The notes beneath the pieces are model-generated. The model saw nothing but the letters and a program-made list of their open reading frames with translations, was not told where the DNA came from and made no database searches. DNA of 64,000 nucleotides. It comes from Fontibacillus panacisegetis (GTDB lineage Bacteria; Bacillota; Bacilli; Paenibacillales; Paenibacillaceae). Positions 1,291 to 51,660 of the stretch are shown here, in pieces (position 1 is the stretch's first letter; each line of letters opens with the position of its first letter). Position numbers and translations under genes: made by a program. The stretch lies in NCBI RefSeq assembly GCF_900102215.1, contig NZ_FNBG01000003.1, forward strand, positions 1 through 64,000, written 5' to 3'.

Positions 1291-1512
1291 ATGACACAAG
1301 TTGATACGAACGCATTAAAAAAAGCAGAGGCATCTACAACTATCGCAAAAGATATGATTACACAAGCGATCGAGCAATCCGCTTCTAATCAGACGTTATG
1401 TGAGGAAGCATTAAAGCAAGCTTCCAATGAAATTACTCAAGCTCAATCCATGGTTAAGCAAGTACAATCCTCATTACAGGCAGCTGCACAAGCTCAACAA
1501 CAAACAAAATAA
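1291..1512 (+). CDS. Small Ala/Gln-rich helical protein (hypothetical)
   Basis: A 73-residue hydrophilic protein rich in Ala, Gln, Thr and Lys, predicted almost wholly alpha-helical and possibly coiled coil. It has one Cys, no signal peptide and no membrane segment. The start is supported by GGGAGG about 9 bases upstream; another ATG at 1286 is out of frame. It stands alone between the kinase gene and a terminator hairpin. I do not recognise the family. Its style recalls small sporulation-associated or coat-like proteins of Bacilli, but nothing here proves that. Confidence 0.6.
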   Translation: MTQVDTNALKKAEASTTIAKDMITQAIEQSASNQTLCEEALKQASNEITQAQSMVKQVQSSLQAAAQAQQQTK

Positions 1513-48204: not shown

Positions 48205-48228
48205 CCGCATCTTGTGGAGGTGTACCGA

Positions 48229-49305
48229 ATGAACATACAAAAGATAATTGATCGCAAAAGGCTGGATGAAAAAACGGTACATATGCCTTGGTTCGTTCAG
48301 CAGTTTATTGATTATAAACTACCCGACCTCTCTCCTTCTACTCTGCTGGAATATGTAAGAGATTATGAGCAGTTTTTTGGATGGTTAAGAGCTGAAGGCT
48401 TGTCTGTAGCGGACAATAATGCGGGTGTTACTCTTCTGGAGCTAGAGACACTGCATATGGAGAGTGTGGTAGGTTATCGACTTCATTTAACGACCAGAAC
48501 CGAAGGGACGAATTCCAAAATTACAGTCTCTCGTAAAATGTCTTCCCTTCGCTCACTATTTCATTACTTGAGTCAAATTGCTGAAGACGAGAATTTCTAC
48601 CCGTTGCTCAAGCGTAACATTATGGCCAAGGTGGAAATCAAACGGATTCATAAACCAAAGGATACCGCAGCCAAGCTTAAAGGTAAAATCCTTGAGGAAG
48701 ATGAATTAATAGAATTCATCAGCTATATTGCTGAGGGTTACGGTCAGGATATCCATGACAACAAGCAGGCACTTTATTCCTATGAGCAAAATAAAGAGCG
48801 CGACGCCTGCATTGCGAGTCTGATTCTGAATTCAGGGTTACGGGTATCGGAAGTTGTGAATATGAATGTAGATGATTTAGATCTCGCTAACAAGCTGCTA
48901 TACGTTTTTCGTAAAGGCAACAACGATGAATCATTTAAGACGCCTGTATATTTCCGGGATCAATCTAAAGATGATTTATCCCATTACTTAAATTTAAGAA
49001 CGACACGATATCGTACACCCAAACGGGAAAAGGCGCTCTTTGTCGCCGTTCCGAACGGGCAAAAAGAGGGCAAACGCATGACAAAACGCGCCATTCAGGC
49101 GATGATCATCAAATACGCCAAACGGTTTGGCAAGCCATATTTAACGGTTCATAAACTTCGGCATTCTTTTGCTACCGACTATTATTTACAGAACGATATT
49201 TATAAGACCAAAGAACAGCTTGGACATGCTTCTACCGAAACAACAGAAGTATATGCGCATTTGACTGACAAGACGATGTCTGAAGCGATTGAACGTCGTG
49301 CATAG
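48229..49305 (+). CDS. xerS: Tyrosine recombinase XerS-like
   Basis: A 358-residue site-specific recombinase. N-terminal SAM-like core-binding domain (about 15-140), catalytic domain with Arg in ILNSGLRVSEVVNM, Lys in the beta-hairpin FRKGNN, HKLRHSFATDYY (His-x-x-Arg), LGHASTETTEVYAH with the nucleophilic Tyr. Length and the insertion before the catalytic domain fit XerS, the single-recombinase chromosome-dimer resolution type. GGAGGTG is 8 bases before ATG. Not a phage integrase by context. Confidence 0.85.
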   Translation: MNIQKIIDRKRLDEKTVHMPWFVQQFIDYKLPDLSPSTLLEYVRDYEQFFGWLRAEGLSVADNNAGVTLLELETLHMESVVGYRLHLTTRTEGTNSKITVSRKMSSLRSLFHYLSQIAEDENFYPLLKRNIMAKVEIKRIHKPKDTAAKLKGKILEEDELIEFISYIAEGYGQDIHDNKQALYSYEQNKERDACIASLILNSGLRVSEVVNMNVDDLDLANKLLYVFRKGNNDESFKTPVYFRDQSKDDLSHYLNLRTTRYRTPKREKALFVAVPNGQKEGKRMTKRAIQAMIIKYAKRFGKPYLTVHKLRHSFATDYYLQNDIYKTKEQLGHASTETTEVYAHLTDKTMSEAIERRA

Positions 49306-49388: not shown

Positions 49389-49417
49389 TTGACCACCTAT
49401 CAAATATATGATTATAT
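49389..49417 (+). promoter_or_regulatory. Promoter of the AloR-like receptor gene
   Basis: TTGACC (49389-49394), 17-bp spacer, TTATAT (49412-49417), about 99 bp upstream of the start codon. Confidence 0.5.
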
Positions 49418-49515
49418 TGATTTGTAATATATTAACAAAATATGTATGTAGTAACACGACATATGAGTTATTTCCATTTAGAAAAACTAATTTTCTTTAA
49501 AAGGTGATATTTTAT

Positions 49516-50910
49516 ATGAACAATTCAACCTCGATTCTCGAACGAGTAAATTCCTTTATTTTGCAGGAAAACTTATGCTTAAGTAAAATAGCCAAAAAAG
49601 CAGAAGTAAACGCAGGTACGCTGAGCTCTATTTTTAATAGGAACAAGATATTTACAATCGATCAGTTAGATCGGATTACCGCTGTGATGAATTTGCCTGA
49701 GGGTCATTTATATGACCAATACATTGTAGATTATTTGAATGAATCATCACCAAACTGGCGCAGAATCCGCCCCTTTCTGTATCGCTGTGCAGATTTGGAC
49801 AAGCTGGACTGTATAAAAAAAGTAGTGAGTCTATTAATGGAAAATCTTATGTATGCTCCACTGTTATTTGATGTCGCAGAGGATTTTTTTCAGACTCAAA
49901 AGTTTGCCGCTGCGAGATTTTTGTATGAAAGTGTCGCTGAAAGCGAAAAGCAGCAGCATTCGGAACGACTTGCTTTGTGCAAATACAGATTATTTAATTT
50001 GAGCCTCGGAAATGATCAAATCAAAAATCAACATGCTGCTATCCAATTTGAACCCTATTTAGAACGGCTGGATGAGATTGACCAATTGGAAGCATTAAAG
50101 GATCTGGCAAATTTATATCGCTCTTTACGAGATTGGGATAAGCTCGAGGTACTGGCAAAGCGGATGGAGGAAAAAGGCAAGGCCTACTATTTCTCTAAAA
50201 GTAGATCTCACAGTAAAGATAAGATTAAAAAAACAAGCAGGCCTGCATTTGTTTATATTGCTTTCCCTTATTTACTGCTGGGGGCTGTTTATGAGGCACG
50301 TAAACAACGCGATTTGGCTTTACACTTTAATTCTTTATATGCAGATTTAGACTGGGTTAAAGAGAAGGATGAAGAAACATTATATTGGAAAAGTCTATTT
50401 AAAGAGTGGTCAGTAGCTAATATTTTTGTATCCAAGCTGTTCTTAGGAGATGTGAGTATTCTTCCAGACTATGTAGTCTATTTTGAATCCAAAGATCACG
50501 AAATTTTAGTCGCATTATTAAATATTGTTGAAGCAGCAAATCAGCATTACTATAATGTGGATGACATTCTTCAACAATTTGCATCTAATATTTCAAATTA
50601 TTTGGAAAATCAAGAAGAAAGTCCCTTTTATTCATCACATATTATCTCAGATGTAACCATAAATTTATCAAACGAACTTGCGGAATATTACCTGCGTAAT
50701 GAAAAATATGAAGTTGGGTATACCTATTTATTAATATGTTTAGAAAAATCATCCAAAAATAGGGATAAATCTGGTATAATCAAATGTGTAGGTTTATTTG
50801 AACTCTACAAAGATGAGGCTTCTTGTGAAGTTAAATCAACCTACCAAAAATTAATTAAAGAGGTGTATGAACATGAAAAAAAAATTAACTTATCTTCTGA
50901 TGACATCTAG
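49516..50910 (+). CDS. AloR/AimR-like peptide-responsive TPR regulator
   Basis: A 464-residue protein with an N-terminal helix-turn-helix (LSKIAKKAEVNAGTLSSIFNR, then FTIDQLDRITAVMNL, about residues 20-65) and about 390 residues of helical repeats of TPR style (e.g. FDVAEDFFQTQKFAAARFLYESVAESEKQ; VYEARKQRDLALHFNSLYADL; LAEYYLRNEKYEVGYTYLLICLEKS). This is the architecture of phage AimR and of Paenibacillus AloR receptors, which bind a short imported peptide. Start ATG 49516 lies after AAGGTGAT; the in-frame GTG 49504 is inside that site. A secreted peptide gene overlaps its 3' end. Confidence 0.8.
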   Translation: MNNSTSILERVNSFILQENLCLSKIAKKAEVNAGTLSSIFNRNKIFTIDQLDRITAVMNLPEGHLYDQYIVDYLNESSPNWRRIRPFLYRCADLDKLDCIKKVVSLLMENLMYAPLLFDVAEDFFQTQKFAAARFLYESVAESEKQQHSERLALCKYRLFNLSLGNDQIKNQHAAIQFEPYLERLDEIDQLEALKDLANLYRSLRDWDKLEVLAKRMEEKGKAYYFSKSRSHSKDKIKKTSRPAFVYIAFPYLLLGAVYEARKQRDLALHFNSLYADLDWVKEKDEETLYWKSLFKEWSVANIFVSKLFLGDVSILPDYVVYFESKDHEILVALLNIVEAANQHYYNVDDILQQFASNISNYLENQEESPFYSSHIISDVTINLSNELAEYYLRNEKYEVGYTYLLICLEKSSKNRDKSGIIKCVGLFELYKDEASCEVKSTYQKLIKEVYEHEKKINLSSDDI

Positions 50911-50995
50911 TCTTTTTGTTTTAATTCTCAGTCCAATTACAATCATATCAGATAATGGCAGTATAACTCCTCTTTATTTTCATGGTGGCGTTTGA
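50873..50995 (+). CDS. AloP/AimP-like pre-pro signalling peptide
   Basis: A 40-codon ORF in another frame, overlapping the receptor's last 38 bases. GAGGTG lies 8 bases before ATG. The product has a Lys-rich start (MKKKLTYLLM), a hydrophobic core (SSLFVLILSPITII) and a polar tail SDNGSITPLYFHGGV. That is the layout of Phr/AimP/AloP precursors: Sec export, then protease release of a C-terminal 5-8 residue peptide. Candidate mature peptide lies within ITPLYFHGGV. Its position directly after the receptor and before a terminator strongly supports a cognate pair. Confidence 0.78.
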   Translation: MKKKLTYLLMTSSLFVLILSPITIISDNGSITPLYFHGGV

Positions 50996-51054
50996 TTAAT
51001 ATTCCTGAAGAAATAGTAATGATAGACAAGCTTAAAAAATCGATTTGAAACAAG

Positions 51055-51096
51055 AAACCACCACAACTAGGCAATAGCCTGTTCGGTGGTTTTCCT
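51055..51096. terminator. Terminator after the peptide gene
   Basis: AAACCACC (51055-51062) pairs with GGTGGTTT (51085-51092), extended by inner pairs GGC/GCC; followed by TTCC. It closes the receptor/peptide unit and faces convergent mobB. Confidence 0.72.
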
Positions 51097-51126
51097 TGTC
51101 TTTAATCTTCTTAACTACACTGTTCT

Positions 51127-51660
51127 CTATAAACTTCCAATCATAAAATTAACGATCTCTCTATCCTGTTTCACCTCAAACAATTGTAGACGTTCCTCTA
51201 TTGACAGCGCAAGTACTAAATCTCGCTCTTTGTCATTCAGACCACGGTACACAATCCCAATAACCTGACTCAATTCTCTAACAAGTTGCATATCCTCAGT
51301 CGAAGTTACCAGAACCAATTTTGGATACTCCTCTTGTTTAAATCCTTCCAAAATGACAAGATCATACTCGCGAAAATAATCTATTAAACTCTGAACCGAA
51401 GTCTCTCGCTCCTCCATAATCGCTGTTCTCCAAGGAGATGTGATTGCTGTAGCTAAAGCGCCAGCTTGCCGCAGCTTATAGGTATCGGTTCCTTCTACAT
51501 CGCTATCGAAGCCGTGAACATCATGCTTGATCACAGCTATTTTATAATTCATGTCATTAAGTATAGGGATTAGCCTTGAGATCAAGGTGGTTTTACCACT
51601 ATTTTTGTAGCCTACGATTTGAATAATCTTCTGATCAGTCCTACTAGCTACCTCAATCAT
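51127..51660 (-). CDS. mobB: Molybdopterin-guanine dinucleotide biosynthesis protein MobB
   Basis: A 177-residue P-loop GTPase helping to convert molybdopterin to the MGD form. GYKNSGKTTL at residues 17-26, then VIKHDVHGFDSDVEGTDTYKLRQAGA (switch region), and DLVILEGFKQEEYPKLVLV. Overlaps moeA by 4 bp (ATGA). Last gene of the pyrK-pyrD-lpdD-like-moeA-mobB cluster. Confidence 0.93.
   Translation of the reverse strand: MIEVASRTDQKIIQIVGYKNSGKTTLISRLIPILNDMNYKIAVIKHDVHGFDSDVEGTDTYKLRQAGALATAITSPWRTAIMEERETSVQSLIDYFREYDLVILEGFKQEEYPKLVLVTSTEDMQLVRELSQVIGIVYRGLNDKERDLVLALSIEERLQLFEVKQDREIVNFMIGSL

Follow-up and report, generated by a model that had tools for sequence, protein, structure and literature searches.

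The stretch of Fontibacillus panacisegetis DNA analysed here (the window; 64,000 nucleotides) contains what is very probably an AloR–AloP receptor–peptide pair of the Paenibacillaceae Alo family, arranged, as far as the sequence indicates, as an operon of two genes flanked on either side by an unrelated gene. The individual pair is new; the kind of system is not. The original prediction had rated the locus as a candidate for a previously undescribed system, a claim overtaken by the description of the Alo family in 2020 (PMC7425212). According to the text of that paper, the family consists of HTH and TPR receptors followed by ORFs of 32–50 aa and numbers 1,050 receptors from 149 bacteria, virtually all of them Paenibacillaceae; fragments of nine of 14 pro-peptides were seen by mass spectrometry, and one pair, Alo13 (mature peptide SHGRGG), was functionally tested: AloR13 activates the next gene, spo0E, and the AloP13 peptide shuts spo0E off and changes other alo genes (PMC7425212). 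Orphan receptors are also known in the family (PMC7425212), and AloR is listed among the RRNPP receptors in the texts of PMC10075063 and PMC9765709. The features of the locus and its immediate neighbours are as follows:

48214–49305, plus strand: tyrosine-recombinase gene, left neighbour, outside the system (Pfam Phage_integrase match)
49389–49418, plus strand: candidate alo operon promoter, TTGACC, 18 nt, TATATT (block recurs before homologous receptor genes)
49516–50910, plus strand: aloR, encoding a 464-aa receptor (ORF calling, homologue searches, model, fold comparison)
50860–50865, plus strand: GAGGTG, putative RBS of aloP, inside aloR (sequence, comparison with homologues)
50873–50995, plus strand: aloP, encoding a 40-aa pro-peptide with a Sec-like signal (ORF calling, detector counts, alignment)
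50908–50911, plus strand: receptor stop codon TAG, whose AG plus the next T forms AloP codon 13 (AGT, Ser) (alignment, stop-codon counts)
51050–51099, plus strand: stable hairpin (−22.2 kcal/mol, z −4.6)
51127–51660, minus strand: mobB, right neighbour, outside the system (Pfam MobB match), followed by a moeA-like gene

Homology and predicted structure of the receptor

Reading of the ORFs confirmed the predicted extents of both genes: aloR runs from an ATG at 49516 to a TAG at 50908–50910, and aloP from an ATG at 50873 to a stop ending at 50995. Neither the receptor nor the 40-aa AloP gave a match above cut-off when both window proteins were scanned against Pfam and NCBIfam; the receptor itself had no Pfam HTH or TPR match at E ≤ 0.01, and PHROGs returned weak matches only for the two proteins (best E for the receptor, 0.013). 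Across 33 aligned receptors, however, Pfam recognized HTH_3 in 25 and TPR_12 in 13, and an AlphaFold2 model of the receptor built on 33 sequences (mean pLDDT 90.3) displayed N-terminal HTH helices (residues ~7–57) and a TPR-like helical solenoid (residues ~66–460). Comparison of this model with PDB chains returned TPR superhelices, the highest scores belonging to eukaryotic LGN TPR domains (Z 18.6); bacterial TPR receptors among the matches listed were RapI (Z 15.4), NprR with NprX (15.3), RapH (14.0) and a Rap with its competence and sporulation factor (13.5). Because LGN outscores RapI and NprR, the predicted fold is consistent with, and not proof of, an RRNPP receptor: what the comparison points to is a TPR solenoid, not specifically a receptor of that class. 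The absence of AimR among the 50 entries listed excludes nothing. These data bear out the HTH-plus-TPR architecture that had been predicted. Of the receptor families proposed for profile searches, AloR is the one to which the receptor is homologous; AimR gave no match at E ≤ 1, and a sequence profile run against the PDB found no RRNPP receptor, its matches below E 0.01 being HTH proteins.

All 35 genomes searched in the genus (35 of 35) contained a homologue of the receptor with E ≤ 1e-10, and the 80 loci kept from 345 confirmed relatives came from Paenibacillus, Fontibacillus or Paenibacillaceae MAG records. Using SHGRGG as a guide, we located AloR13 orthologues in P. brasilensis (L214) and Paenibacillus sp. 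BJ-4 (L215); both begin ENATTI, as encoded by the published AloR13 cloning primer in the text of PMC7425212, and in both the pro-peptide overlapping the receptor gene ends in SHGRGG. These orthologues align with residues 1–460 of the window receptor at 32–33% identity (E 6e-69 and 9e-71, at the chosen database size). The AloR of a P. polymyxa ATCC 842 plasmid (NZ_CP024796.1, CUU60_RS27080) is 43% identical over 456 residues, and an annotated 43-aa ORF (CUU60_RS27275) overlaps its gene by 35 nt. A FastTree tree places the window receptor with those of L131, L141 and L014 (support 0.85), all at long distances. Together with the small ORF found after most homologous receptors, the similarity to the AloR13 orthologues sustains the earlier assignment to an AloR/AloP-type pair.

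A signal-bearing small gene overlaps the receptor gene

The aloP frame is shifted by one from that of aloR, and the two genes overlap by 38 nt. Its product of 40 aa, MKKKLTYLLMTSSLFVLILSPITIISDNGSITPLYFHGGV, begins with a Sec-like signal, a call made by a hydropathy and charge rule and not by a signal-peptide predictor, and ends in the tail ITPLYFHGGV. The GAGGTG site ends 7 nt before the ATG at 50873; an alternative ATG at 50867 lies too close to it. Ribosome-binding site, signal and tail were thus all found as predicted.

Evidence that this ORF is a gene comes from its recurrence across the family. We scored homologous loci with a detector for ORFs of 26–70 codons whose start falls in the interval −150 to +250 relative to the receptor stop and which carry at least two K/R in residues 2–7, a hydrophobic stretch and an RBS core. 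The first set, drawn from the genus and its relatives, consisted of 134 unique receptor homologues with a profile coverage of 80% or more (four matches below this were left out, and six of the 134 had at most 2 nt downstream and could not be scored); a signal-bearing small ORF followed 89 of the 134 as compared to one of 438 unrelated ORFs at the same loci. A larger set, in which named loci were added and near-identical receptors dropped, comprised 182 receptors whose downstream sequence reached 300 nt or more, and such an ORF followed 131 of them; since homologues are related, these counts are not independent events. The pro-peptide start lay exactly at −38 nt, the offset seen in the window, in 71 of the 131, making this the commonest position. 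The other 51 homologues yielded no peptide. In some of these the detector passed over plausible peptides: in a small sample of peptide-less homologues, such peptides were found at L131, L139, L039 and L040 (L131 being the locus of the closest receptor) and none at the others.

The detected pro-peptides share a common plan. In the −38 class (n = 71), residues 2–4 are mostly K/R, a hydrophobic run comes next, and a variable linker leads to an end rich in Gly; across all 131, HG falls within the last seven residues in 101 and within the preceding seven in six. Pairwise comparison revealed that for receptors at least 70% identical, identity of the pro-peptides was 0.72 in the signal part, 0.45 in the eight residues preceding the last six, and 0.63 in the last six, as compared to 0.28, 0.11 and 0.23 for receptors less than 45% identical. 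The tails thus track their receptors. A comparison of tail and signal region had been proposed; by these figures both exceed the linker in conservation, and the tail does not surpass the signal.

These features suggest that the mature signal most likely lies inside the C-terminal ITPLYFHGGV, in agreement with the original prediction, and we predict it to be the hexapeptide YFHGGV, its length taken by analogy from AloP13 as described in the text of PMC7425212. The ending YFHGGV is not shared by any of the other 130 pro-peptides detected, two of which end in EQHGGV; the signal of the window pair would apparently be private to it.

The receptor stop codon lies within the signal sequence

Where the two genes overlap in the common frame, a signal-sequence codon takes its first two bases from the last two of the receptor stop codon, such that a TGA stop would encode Asp or Glu at this position. 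Receptor stops in this frame were TAG in 88 cases, TAA in 23 and TGA in none (n = 111), as compared to 108 TAG, 235 TAA and 131 TGA for unrelated ORFs at the same loci (n = 474). Within the −38 class, the codon is AGT/AGC (Ser) in 67 of 71 and AAT/AAC (Asn) in the remaining four. The detector is not the cause of the missing TGA, because placing an acidic residue at this position would leave 110 of the 111 pro-peptides within its hydropathy rule. TGA was present among receptors without a detected peptide (TAG 19, TAA 25, TGA 7; n = 51), receptors without overlap had TAG twice and TAA three times, and in all 15 pairs whose pro-peptide starts at −4 or −1 the stop was TGA, which the ATGA overlap forces. 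Both this test and the promoter test below ignore kinship and their P-values are indicative only; as the homologues are related, the exact stop-codon P-value carries no weight. The constraint speaks for translation of the pro-peptide, and would provide a sequence-only sign of a translated overlapping pro-peptide that helps to find aloP genes missed by annotation. We found no mention of this feature, or of the TTGACC promoter, in the text of PMC7425212.

Candidate promoter and hairpin

By itself, the candidate TTGACC promoter of the window, whose first base is the start that the original prediction gave for the locus, would count for little, because the scanned stretch held seven such promoter-like sites as compared to 8.2 expected. 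The motif recurs in homologues: 86 of 178 receptor genes (the set of 182 without those lacking a placeable start) have TTGACC in the 250 nt before them, while 50 shuffles gave a mean of 6.9 and a highest count of 12, and 81 of these upstream regions have a −10-like hexamer 16–19 nt further on. When distinct TTGACN sites with a −10-like hexamer were compared, 70 of the 114 in front of aloR genes were TTGACC, and in the remainder of these loci the figure was 35 of 153. The window promoter block is common to the nearest clade of the receptor and is single-copy in its own genome, even with up to three mismatches allowed. An inverted repeat, CAAAT...ATTTG, spans the candidate promoter (~49399–49422) and is a possible autoregulatory site. 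No palindrome common to all aloR upstream regions was found (n = 178); the most frequent, CAAATA-N7-TATTTG, occurred in six of 178, all in the nearest clade, and others occurred in small groups. The recurring TTGACC promoter gives searches for AloR binding a definite starting point. A separate idea, that TTGACC is an AloR site controlling a downstream spo0E, is not supported, as the motif lies between receptor and Spo0E-like gene in five of 40 such loci (L107, L109, L110 and L111, which have nearly the same sequence, and L215).

Downstream of aloP, the terminator that had been predicted corresponds to the stable hairpin at 51050–51099. A simple terminator scan did not pick it up, and it may serve as a terminator of alo, of the convergent mobB, or of both.

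Genomic setting

The neighbouring genes tested are a spermine-synthase-type gene, the tyrosine recombinase gene, mobB, the moeA-like gene and a dihydroorotate dehydrogenase gene. Across the genus, a copy of the recombinase 83–92% identical was present in 38 of 38 other genomes searched; the gene is therefore shared by these genomes and does not point to a mobile element. In the same comparison, mobB was matched in 34 of the 38 and not found in four. Going by match coordinates, recombinase and mobB lay 65–356 nt apart in 31 of 38 genomes and were separated in three. Inspection of 14 recombinase–mobB regions revealed both genes in 13, with 9–151 nt between their stop codons; in the window, this distance is 1,821 nt. 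Because the two genes adjoin in relatives, the alo pair is an insertion between them, one found only here among the genomes compared.

No Spo0E-like gene follows the window pair, the next gene being the convergent mobB; a Spo0E-like gene follows 40 of 182 homologous receptors. Elsewhere the same genome encodes three Spo0E-like proteins, eight PF00496 proteins (oligopeptide-binding type) and three more receptor homologues. One of these, L003 (C44), belongs to a second complete Alo pair, with a 37-aa pro-peptide (1395–1508, minus strand) that has a GTG start and the tail PYTNGVGG; its relatives L043, L045, L046 and L055 combine ENGVGG tails with GTG starts, and L042 has ATG. A second, L002 (C68; 990–1238 and 1471–2922, minus strand), is a paralogue of AloR for which no peptide was detected; a Spo0E-like gene (PF09388) comes immediately after it. 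The third, L004 (1495–2730, plus strand; C52:63255–64382), is AloR-like and lacks the HTH, its match to the window receptor (26% identity) beginning near residue 78 of the latter; by reading, a putative XRE-like ORF lies just upstream on the opposite strand (947–1336), and a 187-aa ORF with a putative signal-like start lies downstream.

Other loci showed further variation. Several aloR genes occur within ~6–11 kb at L042, L043, L045, L046, L055 and L093, some with no peptide detected, and the receptor matches at L044, L048, L054, L058 and L067 contain one or two in-frame stops, where the match possibly overruns the true stop. In Brevibacillus phage SecTim467 (L212, 2161–3984), a 27% identical receptor homologue sits beside an annotated putative Spo0E gene and is overlapped by a 45-aa ORF without an obvious hydrophobic signal.

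Proposed action of the pair and alternative explanations

By extension from Alo13, AloP would be exported by Sec, trimmed outside the cell to a short C-terminal peptide of about six residues, most likely YFHGGV, and re-imported by an oligopeptide permease; the peptide would then bind the TPR groove of AloR and alter its action on DNA. As a first guess, AloR would control its own operon, since no spo0E-like gene follows the pair and the promoter block has no second copy in the genome. This latter argument is weak, because the block is only a candidate AloR site, and we give a little less than an even chance to the pair acting mainly on a target elsewhere, such as a Spo0E-like gene: AloR13 controls spo0E and its peptide alters other alo genes (text of PMC7425212), and one of the three Spo0E-like genes of this genome adjoins the peptide-less paralogue L002, whereas the single-copy promoter block speaks against such a target.

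Two further explanations concern the identity of the pair. The receptor could be a genuine AloR that is an orphan, the 40-aa ORF being a chance frame or decayed remnant and the peptide made elsewhere; orphan receptors exist in the family (text of PMC7425212), and L002 is among the 51 of 182 homologues for which no peptide was detected. However, an RBS precedes the window ORF at a suitable spacing, the start is at the family's commonest offset, and the usual TAG stop and Ser13 are combined with a family-type tail, which makes this explanation very improbable. Improbable to the point of being negligible, in our view, is a phage arbitrium system governing lysogeny. In AimR–AimP systems the receptor gene is followed by the peptide gene, the same order as here; the NCBIfam AimR model recognizes six of the 33 aligned receptors at E ≤ 0.01, and one of 50,697 phage records encodes a homologue, at 27% identity. 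The window receptor itself, however, gives no such match even at E ≤ 1, its neighbours are chromosomal genes common across the genus and not phage genes, and its best matches lie on bacterial chromosomal contigs and plasmids; we rejected the arbitrium explanation on the first two of these grounds. A cognate AloR–AloP pair is the reading that we retain.

On a more speculative note, Alo pairs might be transplantable, self-contained cassettes (TTGACC promoter, receptor, signal gene and terminator) that land at neutral core-gene junctions and diverge into private signals, with the stop restricted to TAG or TAA by its second role as a signal-sequence codon and the shared promoter serving as a family autoregulatory switch; we regard this scheme as rather unlikely in its entirety.

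Comparison with known systems

The window pair opens no new kind of system. To a family with, going by the text of PMC7425212, one functionally tested pair in 2020, it contributes a further pair that is clean, complete and testable. Like Alo13 of P. polymyxa (as described there), it has an HTH and TPR receptor and an overlapping downstream pro-peptide with a hydrophobic signal and a short His/Gly-rich tail. It differs from Alo13 in receptor sequence (32–33% identity), in tail (YFHGGV as compared to SHGRGG), in overlap and stop codon (38 nt and TAG as compared to 50 nt and TAA), and in the spo0E-like gene that lies downstream in Alo13 and not here. The plasmid pair of ATCC 842 resembles it in its receptor (43% identical) and its 43-aa overlapping ORF, and differs in its plasmid location, its tail (TQGYIGGA) and its 35-nt overlap. 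The closest receptor among the 80 loci kept from 345 relatives, that of P. fonticola (L131; 55% identity), shares the −38 start and the TTGACC block; its tail is GFTHGYG, and it is not a same-site orthologue, recombinase and mobB being adjacent in P. fonticola (G001).

Beyond the Alo family, NprR–NprX and Rap–Phr likewise use a TPR groove for a short imported peptide, and the receptor model scores Z ~15 against NprR and RapI; neither NprR nor Rap matched the receptor sequence among PDB chains at E ≤ 10. AimR–AimP is alike in placing a peptide gene after an HTH and TPR receptor (text of PMC9765709) and in the weak match of its model to six of the 33 aligned receptors, and unlike in that the window protein lacks such a match and any phage context. 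AimR would thus be at most a distant cousin of the window receptor, whose nearest known counterparts are the AloR proteins of the Paenibacillaceae.
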